Below are positions 3,780-42,173 of a DNA stretch of 64,000 nt, piece by piece. Source of the DNA: Desulfosoma sp. (GTDB lineage: Bacteria > Desulfobacterota > Syntrophobacteria > Syntrophobacterales > DSM-9756); contig JBBFKY010000006.1 of assembly GCA_037481875.1 (NCBI GenBank), positions 62,001 to 126,000 of the forward strand. Reading direction: 5' to 3'. The notes beneath the pieces were generated by a model, which saw only the letters and a list, made by a program, of their open reading frames with translations, was not told the origin of the DNA and did not search any database. Numbering within the stretch: the stretch's first letter is position 1; every line of letters starts with the position of its first letter. Both the position numbers and the translations under genes were made by a program.

Positions 3780-5204
3780 TCACGCAGAAGTGTGGCTTGA
3801 TGGTTCAAACGCTTTTTTGAGGGTAATGAAAACAATCTCTCCACGGGTGCGAAATCGCACAGGAGACCCGGAAACACCGACGCCCGCACTGGTATAACCG
3901 ATCATATTGTTATGTTTCCAGAGTCCCTGGACCAGGGAGCGCGGAGAACGACTGTGGGTGAAAAGAGGCCCGATCCGTGGAAGCTGAATCTGGCCGGCGT
4001 GGGTATGACCGCATAGATAAAGACGCACACCATAACGAGCAGCCTCATCGGCGACTTCAGGAGAATGAACCAAGAGAATCATGAAGGATTCGGGAGGAAC
4101 TTGGCTTAGGGCTTGCTCCATATCGTCGGCACGAAAGTAGTGCGGATCGTCTAAGCCGACAACGCATAACCGTTCTGAGTTCCGATGAACACAATGGGCT
4201 TCATTGACAAGGAAGCGAATCCTGTCCTCTTTCAAAGCGGCCACCATTTCGGGACAGTCGTGATTGCCCAGGACGGCTAGAATACCATCCTGAGCACGAA
4301 TATGCGGCACGAGGCGTCGCAGACGTTCGACGGCTTGATCACTGGGGCCGTAATTTTCCATGCGATAATCGCCTCCCAGGAGGCACAAATCCACAGGTTC
4401 TTCGGCCAGGAAGCCCTGCAGCCGCTCCACCAATCCGTCCAGTCCATCCAGATGCAAATCTGTCATGAGCAACAGCTTGTAGTTGTCAAAAGCTTCGGGA
4501 AGATCAGAGAAACTCAGGTTCAAGCGTTGGATTCTGATGTTCAGCGCATTGATTTTGCCCGGCTCCAAGAGCCCGAGCCACCGAAAGACGGAGTTCATGA
4601 CCAGGCGATACATGACCACGTCTTCAAAATGAAACATGTGTGCCCAAGGTGCTGAACGAATCTGGCAGCTTGTAAGTTCCCGAAAGCGAACACGCGACTT
4701 GACAGGTCGAGGATAACCTTCAAAAGGTTGCTGCAACAAAATCTTTTTGAAAAAATGGGAACCCGCATAGGCACCCACGCAAAAGATCACAACCAAGCTC
4801 AAAAGCGTCGCGGGATGGGTGCCTACCCAAGAAGAAAGGATGATGAGGGGAAACGCGCCTTCAAAGAGCTGGTCCAAAACAGGCACCGCACTGCCGCTAG
4901 GCAGATCGAGTCGCCGTTTGATAAAGCTGGAAAAAAGGTCTCCGGCCATGCTCAACACCGCCGCTCCGCCCCCCACAAACCAGGGTAAGCCCACAAGTGG
5001 CGCGACCACGAACCCCGTAACCACGGCACTGAAAATACCTCGAATCGTCTTGTGGGGTCCAAAAAGAGGCTTGCCATCCAAAAAGAGACGACCTCGGTCC
5101 AAGGGTATGGACCAGCGTGTGTCTAATAAAAAGGCTAGCAAAGGAGGTGCAAAGTTAATGAACCACAGAAGCACGAGAGTGCTCAAAAAATTCTGCAAGT
5201 GCAT
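3780..5204 (-). CDS. CDP-archaeol synthase-like membrane domain fused to metallophosphoesterase
   Basis: This 474-residue protein joins two domains. Residues 1-165 are hydrophobic and carry the CarS/DUF46 pattern: GKPLFGPHKTIRG at 44-56, then SFIKRR and a LDQ motif near 110. In archaea this family transfers CMP onto an unsaturated ether lipid. Residues 240-465 are a calcineurin-like phosphoesterase with metal ligands in DLH (249-251), GGD, GNHD (313-316), H380 and GHTH (399-402), similar to membrane-associated YkuE-type enzymes. A lipid head-group or CDP-lipid substrate is plausible but inferred. The gene starts 50 bases from the divergent radical SAM gene and lies just upstream of uvrA on the same strand. 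No frameshift is visible at the junction, so it appears to be a real fusion. Confidence 0.82.
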   Translation of the reverse strand: MHLQNFLSTLVLLWFINFAPPLLAFLLDTRWSIPLDRGRLFLDGKPLFGPHKTIRGIFSAVVTGFVVAPLVGLPWFVGGGAAVLSMAGDLFSSFIKRRLDLPSGSAVPVLDQLFEGAFPLIILSSWVGTHPATLLSLVVIFCVGAYAGSHFFKKILLQQPFEGYPRPVKSRVRFRELTSCQIRSAPWAHMFHFEDVVMYRLVMNSVFRWLGLLEPGKINALNIRIQRLNLSFSDLPEAFDNYKLLLMTDLHLDGLDGLVERLQGFLAEEPVDLCLLGGDYRMENYGPSDQAVERLRRLVPHIRAQDGILAVLGNHDCPEMVAALKEDRIRFLVNEAHCVHRNSERLCVVGLDDPHYFRADDMEQALSQVPPESFMILLVHSPEVADEAARYGVRLYLCGHTHAGQIQLPRIGPLFTHSRSPRSLVQGLWKHNNMIGYTSAGVGVSGSPVRFRTRGEIVFITLKKAFEPSSHTSA

Positions 5205-5254
5205 GGCGGTTATCCTAGATAAGGCTCTGAAGACACCCGGTCGCGCATGATATT

Positions 5255-6541
5255 ATGGGTTTAAGTTTTCCCAACGAACGTAAACCGTATGCTGTCGTCT
5301 TTCGGTATCATCCATGGAACCGATACAGTTTTCTGGCCCTTCTGGCGTCCATGGAAACCCGACAGGAGACGCATCATACACCGATTCTTTGGCTGGATGC
5401 CAGGGCAAAGGCCGAACCCGTTTCTGTAATGGCATCATGGCTGAAAACTTACGAGCAGCTTCTTTTGGTCTATTCTTTCATGACATGCCAATGGGTGGAA
5501 GTTCAACGGGAGGTGCAGTCTCTTCAGATCCTTAAACAAGGAGGCCGGGTGATGCTTGCCGCCGGAGGAGCTCATCCCTCGGCGGATCCGCGCTCTGTGC
5601 TGCGAGCCGGGTTTGATGTGGTCTGCCGTGGAGATGGCGAACCGGTCTTTGCCGAACTGGTTCAGCGGTGGGCTCAAGGGGCTTCCCTGAATGTGATCCC
5701 CGGGTTGTACATCAACTCCTCGACCGGTGTCGTGTTTACGGGACACCCTTTAAAAGCCTCTCTGGACGATGTTCCGGCCCTTCCTATAGCTTACGGAAAA
5801 TATGGACCCATCGAAATCACGCGCGGATGCCCTTATGGGTGCCGTTATTGTCAGACTCCGAGACTTAAAGGGCGCATCGTTCGGCATCGGAGCCCAAGTG
5901 CTATTTTTCGTGCTGTGGAAGCCATGGTGGAAGCGGGCCGCACCGATCTTCGCTTCATTTCCCCCAATGCCTTTGCTTACGGTTCCCAAGACGGAAGGTC
6001 CCTGAATGTGACCGCATTGAAAACACTTTTTGAAGGCTTACGCCGCCGTGTGTCGGATCGCGGACGCATCTTTTTCGGCACTTTTCCTTCAGAAGTTCGG
6101 CCCGACTGGGTCCAGCCGGCCGTTATGGAGCTGGTCGCGCGCTACGCCGATAACCAGGAGATCGTCATGGGAGCTCAAAGCGGGGATCCGTCTATGCTGC
6201 GGCGTATGGATCGAGGTCACAGCGTCGAGGATGTGCGAAAAGCTTGCACCTTGGCCAAAAGTTTCGGGATTCGGCCCGTGGTGGACTTTATTCTTGGCTT
6301 GCCGGATGAAACCCCTGAACAAATGACTCGATCTGTGGACTTTATGGAAGAACTGGCCGAGCAGGGTGCGAGAATCCATGCCCACACCTTTATGCCTCTT
6401 CCTGGATCGCCCTGGGCGGCGAGGAGACCTCAACCCATCCCAGGTGACATTCGATTACGCCTGGAAAGGCTTATCTCACAGGGAAAACTCTTCGGACAGT
6501 GGAAAACCCAAGCGCGATTGGCACAAAACCTTTCTCTTTAA
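5255..6541 (+). CDS. B12-binding domain/radical SAM protein
   Basis: The 428-residue protein has an N-terminal cobalamin-binding-like Rossmann region (about 1-175, with a GGAHPSADP stretch) followed by a radical SAM core. The iron-sulfur motif CxxxCxxC is at C192, C196 and C199, preceded by the ITRGCPYGC context typical of this superfamily. It resembles the stand-alone B12-binding radical SAM families first named from methanogens. Its reaction is unknown, and methylation or another radical rearrangement can only be inferred. No substrate-linked gene sits beside it: the divergent neighbour is the CarS-like fusion and the downstream region is a decayed gene. The start ATG at 5255 lacks a convincing ribosome site, but it is the first in-frame start before the conserved region. 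Confidence 0.85.
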   Translation: MGLSFPNERKPYAVVFRYHPWNRYSFLALLASMETRQETHHTPILWLDARAKAEPVSVMASWLKTYEQLLLVYSFMTCQWVEVQREVQSLQILKQGGRVMLAAGGAHPSADPRSVLRAGFDVVCRGDGEPVFAELVQRWAQGASLNVIPGLYINSSTGVVFTGHPLKASLDDVPALPIAYGKYGPIEITRGCPYGCRYCQTPRLKGRIVRHRSPSAIFRAVEAMVEAGRTDLRFISPNAFAYGSQDGRSLNVTALKTLFEGLRRRVSDRGRIFFGTFPSEVRPDWVQPAVMELVARYADNQEIVMGAQSGDPSMLRRMDRGHSVEDVRKACTLAKSFGIRPVVDFILGLPDETPEQMTRSVDFMEELAEQGARIHAHTFMPLPGSPWAARRPQPIPGDIRLRLERLISQGKLFGQWKTQARLAQNLSL

Positions 6542-6654
6542 GCCATTTCTTTTCCCTAGCCTCAGCCTTTACATTCTGCTAGGTTTATGGGAAACGACTG
6601 AACGACCGGCCTCTTTCGCTTTCATCCCCTTCTTCGATCCGTGGAGGAATCTGT

Positions 6655-7554
6655 ATGGCGTGGCCCTTGTCTCCTCCTCATTGGGAGCCCAGGATCTCTC
6701 TGCGCATCTTCCTTTCCATATCCATCCTTCTTTGGATCCCATGCCGTCCATGGGCAATGGACCAGCAAGAGACGATCGTACTGACCCTAGGATCTTGGAA
6801 AACTGAAGATATTCTTCCGGTGAATAATCTTCCAAACCCATTCCAGAACAGTCAGCTCCCGCATATCCGCGTCCTTTTTGACCTTCCAATACCACTACAT
6901 CAAGACCCCGTTAACGAAACGATCTTTATTGAATTATCGAGTTCATCAGTAAAGGAGCAGCAGAGCTTACCGGACGCAGAGCCAAAGAGTCTTATTGTCA
7001 ACAAAGTCTGTGAACTACCTAAAGTGGATTTACTCTGAAGATCGCGATCTCGTCAGGCAAACTGCTAGGGAGGCTCTTCCTACGATTTTTTGCTTGAACA
7101 AATTCGGACAAAGGCCAATGAAGAAAAAGGGAAGTAGAAGAAAGACCATGGTCTCTAGTCATGGCAAGGAAGCCTAACGGCTGTTGAGGGTTTCATCACG
7201 GACATCACCTTCCTGAAACGCTTGCAACAAGAGAGGGAACAACTGATCAAGGAACTTCAAAAAGCGCTTTCCGAGGTAAAAACGCTGAGCGGGCTTCTTC
7301 CCATCTGTAGCTCCTGCAAAAAAATACGGGACGACCAAGGTTATTGGGAGCAGTTGGAAAGCTATTTTCAAAAGCATAGCGAGATTCTCTTTACTCATGG
7401 TATCTGTCCCGAATGCATGAAAAAACTTTACCCGGATGTCTACGAAAAATTGCAGCGGGAAAAGGCATCCCAAAAATCCCAAGAAGGCGAACTAAGGGCT
7501 GATGACACTGTCCGGATGCAGCCCCCAAAAGGACTGAGAAGCAACAAGACATGA
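6655..7554 (+). pseudogene. Decayed solute-binding/PAS sensor gene remnant
   Basis: Three fragments look like one broken gene. The first (6655-7038) has a good ribosome site (GGAGG), a signal-peptide-like N-terminus and a stretch beginning TIVLTLGSWKTED that resembles the mature start of family-1 solute-binding proteins, then loses similarity and stops. The second (from about 6995, another frame) reads YLKWIYSEDRDLVRQ, like a PAS-fold segment. The third, back in the first frame after a stop at 7156-7158, reads EGFITDIT and then continues to 7554 with SGLLPICSSCKKIRDDQGYW and a CPEC motif. That tail is common at the C-termini of deltaproteobacterial PAS and response-regulator proteins. A deletion plus frameshifts is the simplest reading. 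A short tail protein could still be made from an internal TTG at 7222. Confidence 0.62.
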
Positions 7555-7674
7555 GGAAAGGAGGTGATTGCAAGTCTCACAAGGGGTTCAAATTTAAAAA
7601 CATTCAAAGGTTTATGCTGAAAAGTAAAACCGTGGCCATGTCAAGTCTATGAATTAAAAAGAAGGAGATGGAGC

Positions 7675-8706
7675 ATGCGTAGGGAACCTTGGGCGATCAT
7701 GCTTGTTTTCATCGTTGGAAGTGCCTTTCTTGCTGCATGTGGCAGCATGCCCGTCCAGGTGGGGGACTCCTCGGCCAAGACCGTAGCCACGGGGAGCGCC
7801 GGCGGAGCCACCAGTGACAATGTGAATGCTTCCTTGGAACGTTGTGACCGGCCTCTGGGCACCATCGCTGTGGAGGAAGACCAAAATTCGGATTGGTATC
7901 ACTACATTACAGGTCAATACAAACTGACCTCCACAGTCCCTGTGCTCAGGCTTTTGATTCAACAGTCCAATTGCTTCGTCGTAGTGGACCGAGGCCGAGC
8001 CATGAAAACCATGATGGGCGAAAGAGCCTTACAGCAGACAGGAGAACTTCGAGCTGGAAGCAATTTTGGCAAGGGCCAAATGGTGAGTGCGGACTACACA
8101 CTCACGCCGGAAGTCATGATCAGTCAGAAAGGAACTGGAGGTCTCGGAGGAGCCCTGGGAGCCTTTGGTGTTGGAGGTGCTGTAGCGGGAGCGGTTTTAG
8201 GAGGCGTTAAAACCAATGAAGCGGCCGTTATGCTCATGCTTGTAGACAATCGATCCGGTGTTCAAGTAGGGGTTGCCGAAGGAAGCTCCAAGAATTTTGA
8301 TTGGGGTCTAGGTGGCGCCATCTTTGGAGGCAGCGCCGGCGGTGGTCTTGGCGGCTATACCAACACACCGCAAGGAAAAGTCATCGCCGGAGCTTTCTTA
8401 GACGCCTATAACCAGCTTGTGCGCGTGGTCAGAAACTACACCCCTCAAACCATGGGCGACCGTCAACTGGGAACGGGAGGTCGCCTGGGTGTGGAGGGAA
8501 GCAGTCAAAGTGGTGGTTATCAAGGAGCAACGCTTTCCTTGAAAGAGGCCCAAAGAAAGCTCAATGCTTTGGGCTATGAAGCCGGAACGCCGGACGGCAA
8601 GATGGGTCAAGCAACCAAAGAAGCCTTGATGCAATTTCAACAGGATAGGGGGCTTCCCGTGACTGGACGACTGGATGCGGCCACGGCCGCTGAATTGGCT
8701 AAATAG
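7675..8706 (+). CDS. CsgG-like outer-membrane lipoprotein with peptidoglycan-binding domain
   Basis: The 343-residue protein begins with a lipoprotein signal peptide (lipobox LAAC, Cys22). The middle section resembles the CsgG/HfaB family of curli and holdfast secretion lipoproteins: a region reading VLRLLIQQSNCFVVVDRG is followed by glycine-rich hydrophobic segments and a VRVVRNY end. Residues about 285-341 form a PG_binding_1 repeat (AQRKLNALGYEAGTPDG, then FQQDRGLPVTG), which would tether the protein to the cell wall. No curli subunit genes are nearby, so a generic envelope role is as likely as secretion. An AAGGAG ribosome site lies 8 bases before the ATG. Confidence 0.78.
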   Translation: MRREPWAIMLVFIVGSAFLAACGSMPVQVGDSSAKTVATGSAGGATSDNVNASLERCDRPLGTIAVEEDQNSDWYHYITGQYKLTSTVPVLRLLIQQSNCFVVVDRGRAMKTMMGERALQQTGELRAGSNFGKGQMVSADYTLTPEVMISQKGTGGLGGALGAFGVGGAVAGAVLGGVKTNEAAVMLMLVDNRSGVQVGVAEGSSKNFDWGLGGAIFGGSAGGGLGGYTNTPQGKVIAGAFLDAYNQLVRVVRNYTPQTMGDRQLGTGGRLGVEGSSQSGGYQGATLSLKEAQRKLNALGYEAGTPDGKMGQATKEALMQFQQDRGLPVTGRLDAATAAELAK

Positions 8707-10151: not shown

Positions 10152-10220
10152 AAATTTAGGGGCCGACTTATCAGTCGGCCCAACCATGTTTCCTCTTGGG
10201 TGGACCCGTCGGTCCGCCCA
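10152..10220 (-). terminator. Intrinsic terminator after the sigma factor gene
   Basis: A perfect 9-bp stem (GGGCCGACT, loop, AGTCGGCCC at 10160-10181), read on the minus strand, is followed by CTAAATTTTTC, a good intrinsic terminator for the gene ending at 10227. A second 10-bp hairpin with one G-T pair sits between it and the gene (10197-10220) and has no U-tract. Confidence 0.7.
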
Positions 10221-10226
10221 TCCTGG

Positions 10227-11555
10227 TTAATCCAGATAAGGTTTCAGCAGCTCCTGCCTGCTGGGATGACGCAGCTTGCGCAGAGCCTTCTTTTCGATCT
10301 GACGGATTCTTTCCTTGGATACCTTAAAGGTCTTGCCGATTTTTTCCAGAGTTTCCCCAGGCTGTCCGCCTAAGCCGAACCTTAGCCGCAGAATCTTTTC
10401 CTCCCTGGGTTGCAAGCTGGCCAAAAGCTCCCGAGTCACCTCACTCAGTTCGTTGCTCTCACATCCTTCAGCCGGAGAGGCACAGTCCACATCCTCAATG
10501 AAATCACTCAGACGTTGTTCATCATCCCCTACGGGCATTTCCAAGGACAAAGGCTGACTTACCAAACTGAGCACCATTTCCACTTTGTCCGGCGGAATAT
10601 TGGCCCTCTGACTGATTTCTTCCGCCGTGGGTTCACGACCCAACTCCTTCACCAGTTCATGAAAGACTTTAAAAAAAAGGTTCTTCAATTCGATGAAGTG
10701 GACCGGCAAACGAATGGTGCGCGTTTTGTCGTAAATCCCTCTAATGATGCTTTGCCGCACCCACCAGGTGGCATACGTGCTGAACCTGTTCCCTTTTGTA
10801 TGATCATAACGCCCGACGGCCTTGAGCAACCCCAGGTTCCCTTCCTGAATAAGGTCGTCAAAACTCATGCCGCGGCCTCGATACCGTTTGGCAATGCTCA
10901 GGACCAAACGCAAATTGGCCTTCACCATGGCGTGCTTGGCTTCGTCGATCTCAGCAATGGTTCGATCACACTCCTCCTTCATGGCCGAAAGGATCGAATC
11001 CTGAGGCTCATCCGCCACGGCCTGATGCAAGGTTCGGGAAATGACTTTGAGCACCTTGTCCCGAACCCCTGGAAATGTCTTGGCCTGACCGAGTAGGTTT
11101 CGAACTTTTCCATGAAGGTCCTTGACCACCGGATGGTCTTCCTTGTGGCTTTCCACCAATCGCACCAGCCGGTCTTGGCCATCCCGGATCCTTTTGGCCA
11201 GCTCGATTTCCATCTCAGGAGTCAATAATGGAAAAGATGATACCTCGCGAAGATAGCACGTGACATGATCTTCGTCGAATTCCACGTTCGCTTCCTCGTC
11301 CAGCTCTGATTCCTCGACCGCCGAAGAGGGGGCGAGCGAGAATTCATCATAACGAAGATCCTTGTTTTCACTTTGAAGCAACCCGCTCTGATTGTCCTCC
11401 ACGGATTCTTCCTCTTCTAGCTGGGCAGCGAAAAGATTCTCTTCGGATCCCAGGATTCCCACGTCCAGGAGGTGCTCGTACTCGTCGTCCTCTGCCTCGC
11501 TATTGAAGCGCAGGCGCTCAAGAGGATCCAATCTTTGCCCATGCAAACTCTTCAT
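10227..11555 (-). CDS. RNA polymerase sigma factor, sigma-70 (RpoD/group 2) family
   Basis: The 442-residue sigma factor has an acidic N-terminus (about 1-90), region 1.2 (TCYLREVSSFPLLTPE), and region 2 with the highly conserved core-binding and -10 recognition stretch (GMSFDDLIQEGNLGLLKAV, then YATWWVRQSI). Regions 3 and 4 follow, ending in the helix-turn-helix FKVSKERIRQIEKKALRKL. It lacks the long non-conserved insert and full region 1.1 of a housekeeping RpoD (about 600 residues), and dnaG is not adjacent. It may therefore be a group 2 alternative factor. The ATG at 11555 is selected because AAAGGAGGA precedes it, and 37 further upstream codons are unlikely to be translated. Confidence 0.86.
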   Translation of the reverse strand: MKSLHGQRLDPLERLRFNSEAEDDEYEHLLDVGILGSEENLFAAQLEEEESVEDNQSGLLQSENKDLRYDEFSLAPSSAVEESELDEEANVEFDEDHVTCYLREVSSFPLLTPEMEIELAKRIRDGQDRLVRLVESHKEDHPVVKDLHGKVRNLLGQAKTFPGVRDKVLKVISRTLHQAVADEPQDSILSAMKEECDRTIAEIDEAKHAMVKANLRLVLSIAKRYRGRGMSFDDLIQEGNLGLLKAVGRYDHTKGNRFSTYATWWVRQSIIRGIYDKTRTIRLPVHFIELKNLFFKVFHELVKELGREPTAEEISQRANIPPDKVEMVLSLVSQPLSLEMPVGDDEQRLSDFIEDVDCASPAEGCESNELSEVTRELLASLQPREEKILRLRFGLGGQPGETLEKIGKTFKVSKERIRQIEKKALRKLRHPSRQELLKPYLD

Positions 11556-11835
11556 GGCGATCCTCCTTTCTCGGGACACCCTAGGTCTTCCTCCATGATC
11601 TTTCTTAATCTTCTCTCCGCGACCCTCCTCTTTTTTTGAGTTCACGGCACACCAAAAACGGCACACTTAGGAGACAAACCAAATATACGGTAAGTTCGAG
11701 AGAACGCCCCGTCAATGGAATTCATCAAAATGGCATGAAGAAACGGGAATTTCCAAAGCCCTTTGAAAGGAGAAGAAACTTTATGACATGGAGTACAAGT
11801 CGTCTTTTCGATCCCGCTGGAATTCTTCTTCGGTT

Positions 11836-38035: not shown

Positions 38036-38836
38036 CTAGAGCCGCTCGATCAGCTCGGGAGGATCCGATCCCGGCGGGCGAATTTTTCTCTGAATCTCCT
38101 CCTTTAAGCTTTCCCTTTGCGCCTCGGTGAGCCCTTCACGGGGCTCTTCCACAACAAAAGGCACGTCTCTATCTTCATAAACTGCAATTCCGGTCAAAAT
38201 CCCGCGCCTTTTGGTTAAAAGGCGCGATTGCATCCATCCGGCATCTCCAATGACCAAAGCAAAACAAAAGGACCCGTAAACCGTCTCCAGAAGACGCACC
38301 CTCCCTAGAGGCCCGTCGGTCAGCACCGTCACGCTGCCTTCCTTCATCTGTTCGGGACTCCAGCTGTTTTCTTGAAGGACCGTCAAGCCTTCGATACGGA
38401 TCTCCTTTTTTGCCACCGGACACCGCAACCTTGAAGCCACATATTCCAGGACCGTTCGATGATTCACTTCGTCCACGGGAGAAAAATCATGCACCTGCAG
38501 GTCCCCGTGGGAATGAATCCAACCGTTGATCACCCTCCCCGCCGGAACTTCTTCTTGAAACGCCAACAGATCCGCCGTCTCCAATTGGGTGTACTGGCGA
38601 AGATTGCGGGCGTTTCGAGGAAGCCCGATATCCGTGATGATCTCCGGTCTCCTTTCGTCACCTAAAGTCAACCCGTACCACTCGTAACTTTCCCCGTACA
38701 GTTCTCGAACCATCGAGGAAATAGCGAAGGCTTTGGCATGAGCGAACCCGGTCATGCGCACGCTTGCCGGAAGCTCCCCCAGGGCAACTTCCAGCACACT
38801 GGGCCTCTTGAGATCTGAAAGCTTCTTTAGACGCAT
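38036..38836 (-). CDS. JAMM/MPN-type metalloprotease-like protein
   Basis: The 266-residue protein has a JAB/MPN pattern. An upstream helix (GFAHAKAFAISSMVRELYGES) carries candidate Glu 49 or 52, and the metal motif is H108-S-H110 with S119 and D122 (WIHSHG then FSPVD). The usual spacing is HxH, seven residues, S, two residues, D; here there are eight. Such enzymes remove ubiquitin or ubiquitin-like proteins, or process their C-termini. It lies 16 bases after a ClpX-like gene in a five-gene operon that includes candidate ubiquitin-like and E2-like proteins. GAGGAAGG precedes the ATG. The C-terminal half is unassigned. The substrate is inferred from context only. Confidence 0.7.
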   Translation of the reverse strand: MRLKKLSDLKRPSVLEVALGELPASVRMTGFAHAKAFAISSMVRELYGESYEWYGLTLGDERRPEIITDIGLPRNARNLRQYTQLETADLLAFQEEVPAGRVINGWIHSHGDLQVHDFSPVDEVNHRTVLEYVASRLRCPVAKKEIRIEGLTVLQENSWSPEQMKEGSVTVLTDGPLGRVRLLETVYGSFCFALVIGDAGWMQSRLLTKRRGILTGIAVYEDRDVPFVVEEPREGLTEAQRESLKEEIQRKIRPPGSDPPELIERL

Positions 38837-38852
38837 TCGACAATCACCTTCC

Positions 38853-39956
38853 TCAACCCAAAGCCGCCTTCACCTGCATGGCATTGACTTCGTAGTCGCC
38901 CGTATGGGTCCCCGGCAAGGAAAACATCGGGTCCAAAAGCACGCGATGCAGGATACTTGTCAGTCCACGCGCTCCGACCCCTTCTTGCTCGGCACGCCGC
39001 GCCACTTCCAGAACCGCCTCCTCCGTGAGACGCAGCCGAATTCCCCAAGCTTCAAAGTCCTTCACAAAAGCCTGCAGAGGGCTATCCTCGCTTTTGATCA
39101 GGATATCTTTCAAATTCGACGTGGTCAGCGAATTGTAAACCACCCGGACCGGCAATCGGGCCATGAGCTGCCTTTCCATTCCGTAGCGGACCAAATCATC
39201 CGGCAGAAGAAATTCCCGCCATAGTCCCTTGAGTCCTTGACGTTCCATACGCTGGCGCACGGTGTCTTCCAAACCTTCAAAAGCGCCTCCGGCAATGAAA
39301 AGCACATGTCGTGTGGACAACGTCAGCCTATCCCGTCCCCATTCAATGGTGTTTTCCATCCCTTCGAGAATCTTCAAAAGCCCCTTCTGAACCCCTTTGC
39401 CGGATACGTCTTTGGTCAAGGTTTTTTCGGAAGCGATTTTGTCGATTTCATCCAAATACACCATGCCCGTCTGAGCCGTTAAAGTGTGCCCACCGGCCGA
39501 AACCAAAAGGTCGACTAAAATGTCGGAAGCACTTTGGCCCACATACCCGGTTTCGCTGAACTTCGTTAGATCTTCCACCACAAAAGGGACACCCACCAAC
39601 CGGGAAGCCACTTCACAGGTATAGGTCTTGCCACAGCCGGTCGGACCGACAATCAGAATATTGGCCTTCGGCGTCTTGACCCGCTGCAGGGCCTTTTCCA
39701 CATCTCCTCCAACCTGACCGGCCGCTTCCCGCAATGCCGCTCCAAGCCTTCGGTAATGGTAAGCAATGGCTGTCGCCAGGATCTTTTTTCCTCGTTCCTG
39801 CCCGATGACATAGCGGTCCATTTCCGCTTTCAGCTGCGACGGCGTCTTATCAAAGCCCGTAATGTGCTCCACCGTCTGATAGGTTTTGCGGTCCCGCACA
39901 CCATCCAATTTTTCCTGTATTTTCCACCGGCTTTCAGGGGCTAAAGGTTCCGCCAC
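38853..39956 (-). CDS. ClpX-like AAA+ ATPase without zinc domain
   Basis: The 367-residue AAA+ protein aligns by eye with the ClpX ATPase core: YVIGQERGKKILATAIAYHY, Walker A GPTGCGKT (104-111), SETGYVGQSASDIL, Walker B VYLDEIDKI, VSGKGVQKGLLKILEG and GVGARGLTSILHRVLLD. It lacks the N-terminal zinc-binding domain. The segment that in ClpX carries the IGF loop for ClpP docking reads RMERQGLKGLWREF instead, so ClpP partnership seems unlikely. GTG 39956 is chosen because AAGGAGG sits just upstream; it overlaps the preceding gene by 23 bases. It may unfold substrates for the adjacent JAMM protein (inference). Confidence 0.8.
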   Translation of the reverse strand: MAEPLAPESRWKIQEKLDGVRDRKTYQTVEHITGFDKTPSQLKAEMDRYVIGQERGKKILATAIAYHYRRLGAALREAAGQVGGDVEKALQRVKTPKANILIVGPTGCGKTYTCEVASRLVGVPFVVEDLTKFSETGYVGQSASDILVDLLVSAGGHTLTAQTGMVYLDEIDKIASEKTLTKDVSGKGVQKGLLKILEGMENTIEWGRDRLTLSTRHVLFIAGGAFEGLEDTVRQRMERQGLKGLWREFLLPDDLVRYGMERQLMARLPVRVVYNSLTTSNLKDILIKSEDSPLQAFVKDFEAWGIRLRLTEEAVLEVARRAEQEGVGARGLTSILHRVLLDPMFSLPGTHTGDYEVNAMQVKAALG

Positions 39957-40521
39957 GGAGGTCCTCCTTCCCACGACGCTTTTCGGCATAAAACCGATAA
40001 AGGAATGCAAAACTGTATCGAGAAAGAAGATGCGCCGGCAACTGGGAGTGAAGGGCGAAAAGGGGTCGACTGAGCAAGAGGTCTTCGGGCGATCCCGCCC
40101 ATCGAAGATAAGGACTTTCCAGACGATCCAAAAGATCCTTTACGGCGCTAAAACTCTTCGCATGGGCAAACCCGAAAAGGATAGGGGGCAATTTCTTCTT
40201 TCGAATCTCTCCTCGCGTCAAAACCCGGCACACGATGCCGTCTATAGGTTCTCGATGGAACGCCAAATCCTCGGCGCGCATTCCATAGTGATCCAGAATG
40301 GCCACAACCCGGGTGAAAATGTCCGGCTCAAACTCAGCCTCGCTCTGGTTGCGCGCTCTTCTTTGTCTGAGACGATCCCTGAGTTCCATGCACAACGGCT
40401 CGCACGCGGTTCTTGGCCCGATACCTCGAGCACTTTCGCTTTTTGGCGCATGGGCCGGCGAACTTTGCAGCCCACCTTCTCCCTGTCGCCGGGTACCAAA
40501 AACTTTTCCAATAACGCTCAA
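39934..40521 (-). CDS. Unrecognised protein of the JAMM operon
   Basis: I do not recognise this 195-residue protein. Residues 1-60 look disordered and may not all be translated: the TTG at 40521 has a poor ribosome-site spacing, and an ATG at 40389 is an alternative. The C-terminal part has a helix-strand pattern and the stretch GFAHAKSFSAVKDLLDRL, which parallels GFAHAKAFAISSMVRELYGE in the JAMM protein. It ends LRGGTFSP. It has no signal peptide or membrane helix and is densely packed between its neighbours, so it probably works with them as an adaptor or inactive relative of the protease (inference). Confidence 0.6.
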   Translation of the reverse strand: MSVIGKVFGTRRQGEGGLQSSPAHAPKSESARGIGPRTACEPLCMELRDRLRQRRARNQSEAEFEPDIFTRVVAILDHYGMRAEDLAFHREPIDGIVCRVLTRGEIRKKKLPPILFGFAHAKSFSAVKDLLDRLESPYLRWAGSPEDLLLSRPLFALHSQLPAHLLSRYSFAFLYRFYAEKRRGKEDLRGGTFSP

Positions 40522-40526
40522 CCTTT

Positions 40527-41732
40527 CTACGTCCAGGCGTTGGTCACGGGAATGTTTTTCAGGAGACGGCTTGTATCGTCTGCAGAAATCCTCAGGTCCT
40601 CAAAGTGGACTTCCCGATCGCTTCCAGAAAGCTGGTCCAGGCTGTGATAACCGTTCCTTTTTCTGGCGTCGTAGCCGTAATAGAGAGCGTTGAGGCCATC
40701 TTCGATCGATCGAAAAATGTTTGCGGCGGTCCATGATCGTTCCTGGGGTGCATGTCCGAGACATATTCTCTGCCACGGCTGATGCCGTGCCAAAAGGGGA
40801 TGTTTGTACTTTTCCACCACAACCGGCCAAAGGTCCAGCGGGGAGACCGCCACACGGCAATCGGGAAAAAGGTAGAGCCGATGATAATAGTCCATGAGCG
40901 CGTAACGGCCCGTTCTTTTGTAGACGATCAAGGCTCCATCAAAAGCTCTGTGAAAAAACCCGAATCCATCCACTTCCAACGCACCTCGGGTGAAAACATA
41001 AAGCATGAAAGCCCGCGCCTCTGTCGGCCAATGGCCAAAGTGCTGCATTCTCTCTCGAAGCCGACTTTCCTCCTTCAAGACGGAGTCCCGATACCTTCCG
41101 GTCAAGGCAGCTTCCACGGCTTCTCTGAGTTCTTGCACTGAAACCCTTCGAGGTCCATCCCCATCCCGAGCCTCTTGAAGCCCATCGAAGCCTTTCGCCG
41201 ACACTCCTTTCTTTTCGTGTTCCATCTCCTCGGCCCATCGTCGATACCGAATCGGAAGCGAAACTCTTTTCGCCAACCAAGCCGCCAAAGCCGCGGGCCG
41301 ATCTTTCGCACCCTTGACGCTTCGAGGCACCCGCACAAACCGAGGCAGCACCTGTAAAACAACCATCTCCACGTGTTCCAAGCACGGGTGACGACCCAGC
41401 CACTTCGGCCTTATTCGAAAATCTCGCACACTTTGTTTGCGAATCTTCTGAGCCGTGTGTGGAAAGAGAATTTCGGCATGTTGGATCAGACTGTTCCACG
41501 AGACCGTCTCCACATAGGCCACGCCTTCGTGAAAGACGATTTTTGGTTTCGGTTCCCTCTTTTCGAAAGCCTGGGCCTCTGTATTCCACGGCTCGTGGAC
41601 CCTCAGCTCCGCATGGATCTGGGGATCCAAAGGACACGCAAGGTACAGATGTTCTTGAGAGACAAAAAAATCCTCACCGCCGATTCTTTCGAAAAAACGC
41701 TCACCTTTCCCTTTCACGGAACAGGCTTTCAT
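40527..41732 (-). CDS. Candidate E2-like protein of the JAMM operon
   Basis: The 401-residue protein has no firm family match. The N-terminal 230 residues are unassigned. The C-terminal part has strand-rich sequence ending in VVVEKYKHPLLARHQPWQRICLGH, shown here in pieces: HP at 311-312 and ICLGH with Cys324. An HP followed about ten residues later by IC-L is the layout of the E2 (UBC) active site, and the PRTRC_B/Prok-E2_D proteins have a similar HP and CLG region. This is motif reading, not an alignment. Its ATG overlaps the stop of the ubiquitin-like candidate (ATGA), so the two are coupled. Confidence 0.5.
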   Translation of the reverse strand: MKACSVKGKGERFFERIGGEDFFVSQEHLYLACPLDPQIHAELRVHEPWNTEAQAFEKREPKPKIVFHEGVAYVETVSWNSLIQHAEILFPHTAQKIRKQSVRDFRIRPKWLGRHPCLEHVEMVVLQVLPRFVRVPRSVKGAKDRPAALAAWLAKRVSLPIRYRRWAEEMEHEKKGVSAKGFDGLQEARDGDGPRRVSVQELREAVEAALTGRYRDSVLKEESRLRERMQHFGHWPTEARAFMLYVFTRGALEVDGFGFFHRAFDGALIVYKRTGRYALMDYYHRLYLFPDCRVAVSPLDLWPVVVEKYKHPLLARHQPWQRICLGHAPQERSWTAANIFRSIEDGLNALYYGYDARKRNGYHSLDQLSGSDREVHFEDLRISADDTSRLLKNIPVTNAWT

Positions 41733-42112
41733 GGGATCCTATCCCCCGGGTGCCCTCCTTCTTGAGGTCGAAGCGCCCTTACGGCCACGTAGTAGTATTT
41801 TTCCCCTTCTTCTGTTTCTTCGACTCGCGCCCGTTCCAGAGGATCACCTTCCGCAGGTCGTCCGCCGCACAAAAGCACGCCGTTTTCCATGTGAAACAGA
41901 ATCTCTTCCAGAATTTCCCGTTCTTCCACCGAAAGATCTTCGCGGGAAAGAACCACGTTGATCAGTTCCTGAAGAGTTCGGCCTTCATAGGTTCCGGGTT
42001 CAAAGACTTCCAGGATTCCTTCCGCCGCCTGACCCGGAAGCACCTCGACCACCAAAGGGACCGGCAGTTTTCGAATTTTCTTGTCTTCGTCTTCCATCAC
42101 ATGAAGTTTCAT
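41729..42112 (-). CDS. Candidate ubiquitin-like protein with near-terminal Gly-Gly
   Basis: The 127-residue acidic protein opens the operon. Its order of segments resembles a beta-grasp fold: LVVEVLP, GILEVFEPGTYEGRTLQEL, a helix, then VLLCGGRPAEGDPLE and a strand KYYYVAVRALRPQ. Compare ubiquitin ITLEVEPSDT, LIFAGKQLEDGRTL and LHLVLRLRGG. It ends EGG at 118-120 plus HPGDRIP. A tail after GG would need protease removal before conjugation, and a JAMM gene lies in the same operon. Start ATG 42112 has GGGGTG upstream; a TTG four codons earlier is possible. The similarity is by eye, and the large helical insert (about 55-78) is unlike ubiquitin. Confidence 0.5.
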   Translation of the reverse strand: MKLHVMEDEDKKIRKLPVPLVVEVLPGQAAEGILEVFEPGTYEGRTLQELINVVLSREDLSVEEREILEEILFHMENGVLLCGGRPAEGDPLERARVEETEEGEKYYYVAVRALRPQEGGHPGDRIP

Positions 42113-42144: not shown

Positions 42145-42173
42145 TATTTTGACATGGATTTTTGAGAAGTCAA
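42145..42173 (-). promoter_or_regulatory. Candidate promoter of the JAMM/ClpX-like operon
   Basis: On the minus strand TTGACT (42168-42173) and CAAAAT or AAAATA (42145-42151) are 16-17 bases apart, about 35 bases before the first gene. The -10 is weak. Confidence 0.45.

Follow-up and report, generated by a model that had tools for sequence, protein, structure and literature searches.

A set of five consecutive minus-strand genes, designated A to E, is located in a 64,000-nucleotide stretch of Desulfosoma sp. DNA (contig JBBFKY010000006.1 of assembly GCA_037481875.1; hereafter the window, its genome being G000), where it occupies positions 38036-42112 (Table 1). In transcriptional order, the genes encode a predicted ubiquitin-like protein (Ubl; A), a predicted E2-like protein (B), a small protein (C), a ClpX-like ATPase (D), and a JAMM protease (E). 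An earlier note, made from the window alone, had read these five genes as a conjugation/unfolding operon and listed a Gly-Gly (GG) in A, an HP...C pattern in B, a ClpX core in D, and a JAMM motif in E; all of the genes and motifs are present. A and B overlap by 4 bases (ATGA), and D and E are spaced by 16 bases. The start codons adopted here for C and D probably apply instead of the TTG codons from which the reading frames were listed: that of C was judged by family alignment, while that of D lies directly behind GGAAGGAGG, fits the family length of 366-367 amino acids (aa), and makes D overlap C by 20 bases.

Table 1. Features of the five-gene set, in window coordinates.
Feature	Position	Strand	Remarks
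Gene A, predicted ubiquitin-like modifier	41729-42112	minus	127 aa; conserved RPQEGG, then 7-residue tail HPGDRIP
A Gly119-Gly120, predicted mature C-terminus	41753-41758	minus	family alignment
Gene B, predicted E2-like protein	40527-41732	minus	401 aa; UBC-like core in C-terminal part
B predicted E2 active site, H311-P312 to C324	40761-40802	minus	YKHPLL...Q-x-I-C-L; alignment
Gene C, small protein	39934-40389	minus	151 aa from probable start ATG 40389; open reading frame (ORF) open from TTG 40521
Gene D, ClpX-like AAA+ unfoldase	38853-39953	minus	366 aa from probable start GTG 39953; ORF listed from TTG 40010
D Walker A motif	39624-39647	minus	GPTGCGKT
D short loop at place of canonical ClpX IGF ClpP-docking loop	39195-39251	minus
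Gene E, JAMM/MPN+ metalloprotease	38036-38836	minus	266 aa
E JAMM motif	38471-38515	minus	HSHG-x7-S-x2-D
Promoter-like site 5' of A	42146-42173	minus	9/12 consensus positions; not above chance

The set is not confined to Desulfosoma. A scan of approx. 85,000 species yielded 49 loci with operon copies, nearly all from Desulfobacterota/Deltaproteobacteria, with one from Candidatus Methylomirabilota (L089; L numbers denote individual loci or contigs compared, G numbers other than G000 genomes of the phylum) and two from Woesearchaeota metagenome-assembled genomes (L112 and L119). Desulfoferrobacter suflitae (L081), which can be cultivated, is among the carriers. The order and strand A-B-C-D-E are kept in almost all of approx. 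50 species, a count that takes in relatives, and C is present between B and D in nearly all loci. No convincing conserved neighbour beyond the six genes considered here (A to E and the E1 described below) was found in the flanks of the loci.

The earlier note saw no E1-like enzyme and supposed that the tag might use a distant E1 or none. The first statement is true of the window; elsewhere in the same genome, however, a dedicated E1 is encoded by a lone gene amid unrelated genes (contig 5:19958-21199); the distant enzyme was thus found, and the idea that no E1 is needed was discarded. As judged from sequence, the system is one of six genes, with a dedicated ThiF-type E1 encoded in trans. At L112, a ThiF protein is encoded directly after the operon, and it served as the query for the E1 search: each of the 29 operon-bearing genomes has an ortholog that aligns along most of the query or all of it (E-value ≤ 1e-64), and eight genomes that lack the operon gave only partial, generic ThiF matches. 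The E1 gene lies beside the operon in most other genomes, while in the genus of the window the two are unlinked. The protein matches the ThiF Pfam model (E-value 2.7e-36) and is composed of an N-terminal half, similar to a degenerate adenylation domain and beginning with RxxRQ, and an active ThiF domain. Across 30 E1 sequences, the conserved elements include RxxRQ, GxGxLG, NLNRQ, the DCVDN region, and C391; from motif reading, we take C391 to occupy the position of the MoeB/ThiF catalytic cysteine. The best PDB sequence matches of the G000 enzyme are ubiquitin E1s.

Co-occurrence was assessed in 297 Desulfobacterota genomes for three components, namely the E1, B, and E, and all three are found in the identical 15 genomes (the count for B omits one extra partial match at 25% identity). 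If the genomes were independent, identical 15-of-297 sets would be expected by chance at approx. 1e-25 per pair, although kinship makes the true figure weaker. This agreement, along with the synteny described above, bears out the co-occurrence across Desulfobacterota that the earlier note had put forward as a check. Where the operon is split, its parts persist in the same genome. In G013, A-D-E lies apart from B-C-E1, and a C-terminal remnant of the E1 is found just upstream of A (L058 8060-8296), with the full E1 located with B and C; the remnant is a trace of the split. In G215, A and E are found on one contig, and B and the E1 on two others.

Gene A encodes the predicted tag. The sequence PQEGG is invariant in 27 further Desulfobacterota copies, in which it lies at or near the C-terminus, followed by a variable tail or by nothing. 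In an alignment that includes the DPANN archaeal copies, G119 is conserved in 23/23 and G120 in 22/23 sequences; divergent archaeal Ubls likewise end near GG, with that of L198 reading GA. An AlphaFold2 (AF2) model of A has strands (E) and helices (H) in the order E-E-H-H-E-E; it is weak (predicted local distance difference test, pLDDT, 60) because it was predicted from the single sequence, without an alignment. In a Foldseek search with this model, Smt3, the FAF1 UBL domain, and tomato SUMO came out on top (best E-value 0.02), and VIA-align returned mostly beta-grasp folds (best Z 3.9). A is thus predicted, from this model, to be a ubiquitin-like tag with a beta-grasp fold. In three loci (L049 10802-11626, L095 4335-5204, and L096 4341-5204), a longer in-frame extension follows PQEGG; the one in L049 resembles, by eye, a GNAT-like acetyltransferase domain. 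Because these extensions are fused in frame, release of the tag would require a cut after GG.

The E2-like assignment of B is likewise predicted from a model. H311, P312, L314, Q321, I323, and C324 are invariant in 39 B sequences, one of them archaeal. The AF2 model built from 39 sequences reached a pLDDT of 79.6, and its eight best rows in VIA-align are all E2s (UBE2L6, two entries of Ubc13, a Leishmania E2, Ubc9, two entries of Cdc34, and Ube2g) with Z from 3.4 to 4.5; the next, unrelated row scored 2.2. Foldseek's own listing for the B model contained nothing significant, while VIA-align of the same candidates placed E2s alone on top. When four eukaryotic E2 sequences were compared with B by hhalign, the eukaryotic HPN...ICL fell into register with the HP...C site over 43 columns, without significance (P 0.13, not above controls). 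The Pfam model Prok-E2_D (PF14460) does not recognise the Desulfosoma proteins: it gave no match in the 297 genomes, and none in 14 controls either, so that its silence is uninformative. Beta-grasp and UBC folds in A and B were what the earlier note had named as support for its proposal, and the models agree with it in that E2s rank above all else for B and SUMO/ubiquitin-like folds on top for the low-confidence model of A. Two copies of B are irregular: that of G009 (L034/L051) has a TAG within the aligned stretch, and that of L063 includes a stretch of undetermined bases; both are read as assembly or end effects.

Gene E carries the JAMM/MPN+ signature, with E52, H108, S109, H110, S119, and D122 invariant in alignments of 17 and 14 sequences. 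The Prok-JAB Pfam model matched 5/17 of its relatives (best E-value 2.5e-4), though not the window's own protein, and a profile comparison with the archaeal Rpn11 CsRpn11 gave a weak match (E-value 0.57). PDB sequence-profile searches with A, B, and E returned no significant true match; one hit, at 1.6e-5, was discarded, as its target is a designed repeat protein.

Gene D is distinct from the housekeeping clpX of the same genome, with whose product it shares 38% identity, and it scores below the cut-offs of both housekeeping ClpX models (PRK05342, 265 bits against 359; TIGR00382, 231 bits against 371). It keeps the AAA+ core of a ClpX-type unfoldase, including Walker A and B, the GYVG pore loop, and the GARGL sensor 2, while it lacks the zinc-binding domain, the RKH loop, and the IGF loop that docks ClpP. 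In particular, the docking-loop region comprises 27 residues in all 25 Desulfobacterota D sequences parsed and 29 in L112, compared with approx. 40 residues containing GLGF in the housekeeping ClpX of the window's genome. Since the core motifs are retained and the docking loop is absent, D is expected, from established ClpX biology, to translocate actively but not to dock ClpP. Its neighbour C is approx. 400 aa long in two DPANN archaea (L112 5597-6829 and L194 9250-10449), about twice the bacterial length, with an extra C-terminal part.

The archaeal relatives extend this picture. A JAMM homolog is found in 20/371 genomes of the phylum of L112, and of ten further loci most have E2-JAMM-E1 with a Ubl upstream. 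The A-B-C-D-E-E1 cassette of the bacteria is present in L112 and L194. In L195 and L196, a ClpX-type ATPase follows the E1 and is nearer to another ClpX-like protein of G000 than to D. In L198, from an archaeon of the Woesearchaeota phylum, an Mpa/ARC-type proteasomal ATPase (10159-11652, minus strand; 377 bits with TIGR03689, missing its cut-off of 505) is encoded directly upstream of Ubl-E2-JAMM-E1. In an E1 tree, L112 and L194 fall within the bacterial clade (Shimodaira-Hasegawa-like approximate likelihood ratio test 87), which excludes the divergent E1s of archaea; the tree, which comes from a short search and contains one very long branch, suggests gene transfer between archaea and bacteria. 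A second ClpX-like ATPase is encoded in G000 (contig 5:185272-186378, L165, in a 616-aa frame), and it is nearer to the ATPases of L195 and L196 than to D.

Taken together, the six genes likely constitute a ubiquitin-like conjugation/deconjugation system with a dedicated AAA+ unfoldase. It is envisaged that the E1 would adenylate the Gly-Gly end of A, which would then be handed to Cys324 of B and joined to substrates. E would trim the tail of A where one exists and remove A from substrates, and D, as an ATP-driven ring, would unfold, extract, or disassemble A-tagged proteins; C may have an adaptor or recognition role. Conjugation, its targets, the action of D on tagged proteins, and the role of C are steps that we infer. 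For D, this step is proposed because the Ubl module repeatedly pairs with AAA+ unfoldases and because A, D, and E remain together in G013 although its operon is split. By analogy, and as the ClpP-docking loop is absent, D is probably a segregase like Cdc48/p97 or part of a minimal unfoldase/deubiquitinase pair like Rpt and Rpn11, rather than a ClpP feeder. The first interpretation of the locus as a conjugation/unfolding operon is therefore supported; its sequence of attaching, unfolding, and trimming, which we infer as well, is sharpened by a motor that lacks the docking loop. Several points weigh against this interpretation. A, B, and C are matched by no Pfam or NCBIfam model, the model of A is a single-sequence one with a pLDDT of only 60 and a best Foldseek E-value of only 0.02, and the Z scores of B with E2s are modest (4.5 at most), with Foldseek and hhalign non-significant when taken alone. 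Moreover, the 15/15/15 agreement does not represent 15 independent events, as the carriers belong to 11 genera in 7 families, and neither an E3-like gene nor a peptidase partner was found.

A broader proposal, for and against which we see the balance as about even, is that of a prokaryotic ubiquitin-unfoldase pathway: a Ubl cascade would lead to a dedicated, ClpP-independent AAA+ ring, with JAMM-mediated recycling of the tag, as in Cdc48 or the 26S regulatory particle. The module would stand beside at least two, perhaps three, AAA+ types and would have moved between DPANN archaea and Desulfobacterota.

Among the other explanations, the set might be an anti-phage conjugation system of the Bil, CBASS, or 6a-e kind, in which a phage or host factor is modified and D remodels the target. 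Its patchy spread (15/297 genomes) and the match of the active half of the E1 to PADLOC E1-E2 models would be consistent with such a role, and the characterised bacterial Ubl operons are mostly defensive (PMC10097602, PMC11354881). However, PADLOC models gave no match for A, B, C, or E, conserved defence neighbours are absent, the plasmid and phage collections searched yielded no copy of the operon, and viral contigs contained no close copy, only a distant E2-JAMM-E1 cassette; this explanation is accordingly considered unlikely. Alternatively, A might be a ThiS/MoaD-like sulfur carrier, with the E1 and JAMM proteins belonging to a cofactor or tRNA-thiolation pathway and B and D being accessories. 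Sulfur-transfer operons do include ThiF/MoeB-type E1s and JAMM proteins (Iyer 2006, PMC1779556), and the best NCBIfam score of the E1 is to ThiF; yet at 95 of the 275 bits required, and 83 of 266 and 65 of 377 bits for MoeB, the enzyme is far below every curated ThiF and MoeB cut-off. The flanks contain no conserved rhodanese, cysteine synthase, or thiazole gene, and the conserved partners are instead an E2-like protein with an invariant cysteine and a ClpX-like motor, which leaves a sulfur carrier highly improbable. The same low probability is given to D as an alternative ClpX that works with ClpP, A being a Clp degradation tag: its identity to housekeeping ClpX and its retained ATPase and pore-1 residues would allow this, but the candidate was set aside as the IGF docking loop is missing from D of the window and from its parsed relatives, and the conserved gene set includes no clpP. 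That the genes are chance neighbours or have unrelated functions, as might be suspected from C, which has no known function, and from the unlinked E1 in the window's genus, is discarded as next to impossible, refuted by the exact co-occurrence of three components in 297 genomes and by the same set in Desulfobacterota, Methylomirabilota, and DPANN archaea.

The nearest known systems share parts of this arrangement. Rows 6a-6e of Iyer 2006 (PMC1779556), especially 6d, likewise have separate Ubl, JAB, E1-like, and E2-like genes and one uncharacterised protein per operon; Desulfosoma B differs in the His before the Cys (HP...C), and an AAA+ or ClpX-type unfoldase is nowhere mentioned in that survey of Ubl/E1/E2/JAB operons. 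BilABCD, a bacterial ISG15-like system, has the four-enzyme logic in common and is described without an unfoldase, whereas BilA has two Ubl domains compared with about one in A, and the CEHH motif of BilB is absent from B, whose alignment contains no invariant E/H/H after C324 (PMC11354881). No PRTRC model matches A, B, C, or E, and the E1 reaches 70.5 bits with PRTRC_ThiF (cut-off 144.75). The Caldiarchaeum ubiquitin operon also combines a Ubl precursor, E1, E2, and Rpn11-like JAMM protein (PMC6043591, PMC5654768); it encodes a RING E3, in place of which the Desulfosoma set has the ClpX-like unfoldase and C, and no RING. The 26S lid and base (Rpn11 and Rpt) and Cdc48/p97 also couple an AAA+ unfoldase to a JAMM deubiquitinase or to a ubiquitin pathway, but D belongs to the ClpX/HslU branch rather than the classical AAA proteins, and the set includes no 20S core. 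Pup/Mpa similarly directs a small tag to an AAA+ unfoldase, of the type carried by the L198 operon, but uses PafA-type ligation instead of E1/E2/JAMM.

The earlier note knew of no system with exactly this set, and no account of it was found in the open literature; subscription papers and preprints lay outside the search, and an earlier mention is possible. The words ClpX, AAA, and unfoldase are absent from a review published in 2024. The predicted novelty is thus the tie between a Ubl module of known kind and a dedicated ClpX-like unfoldase, in Desulfobacterota and some archaea. The bacterial Ubl operons whose role is known serve either defence or cofactor chemistry, and none was found described with a dedicated unfolding motor. 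If the system works as proposed, ubiquitin-guided unfolding would have a counterpart in bacteria and archaea, one open to direct testing with six proteins, and the system would bear on the pre-eukaryotic coupling of ubiquitin to AAA+ machines. That Desulfobacterota and DPANN archaea share it adds an aspect of gene transfer.

Two minor features remain. The single promoter candidate of the earlier note exists upstream of A but is at chance level, with four promoter-like sites observed against 2.1 ± 1.7 expected. On a viral contig (L172, IMGVR_UViG_3300031987_000009), E2-like (HPN...C), JAMM, and ThiF/E1-like proteins are encoded close together at 4822-8092, and this is a different, phage-borne cassette of the Ubl type.

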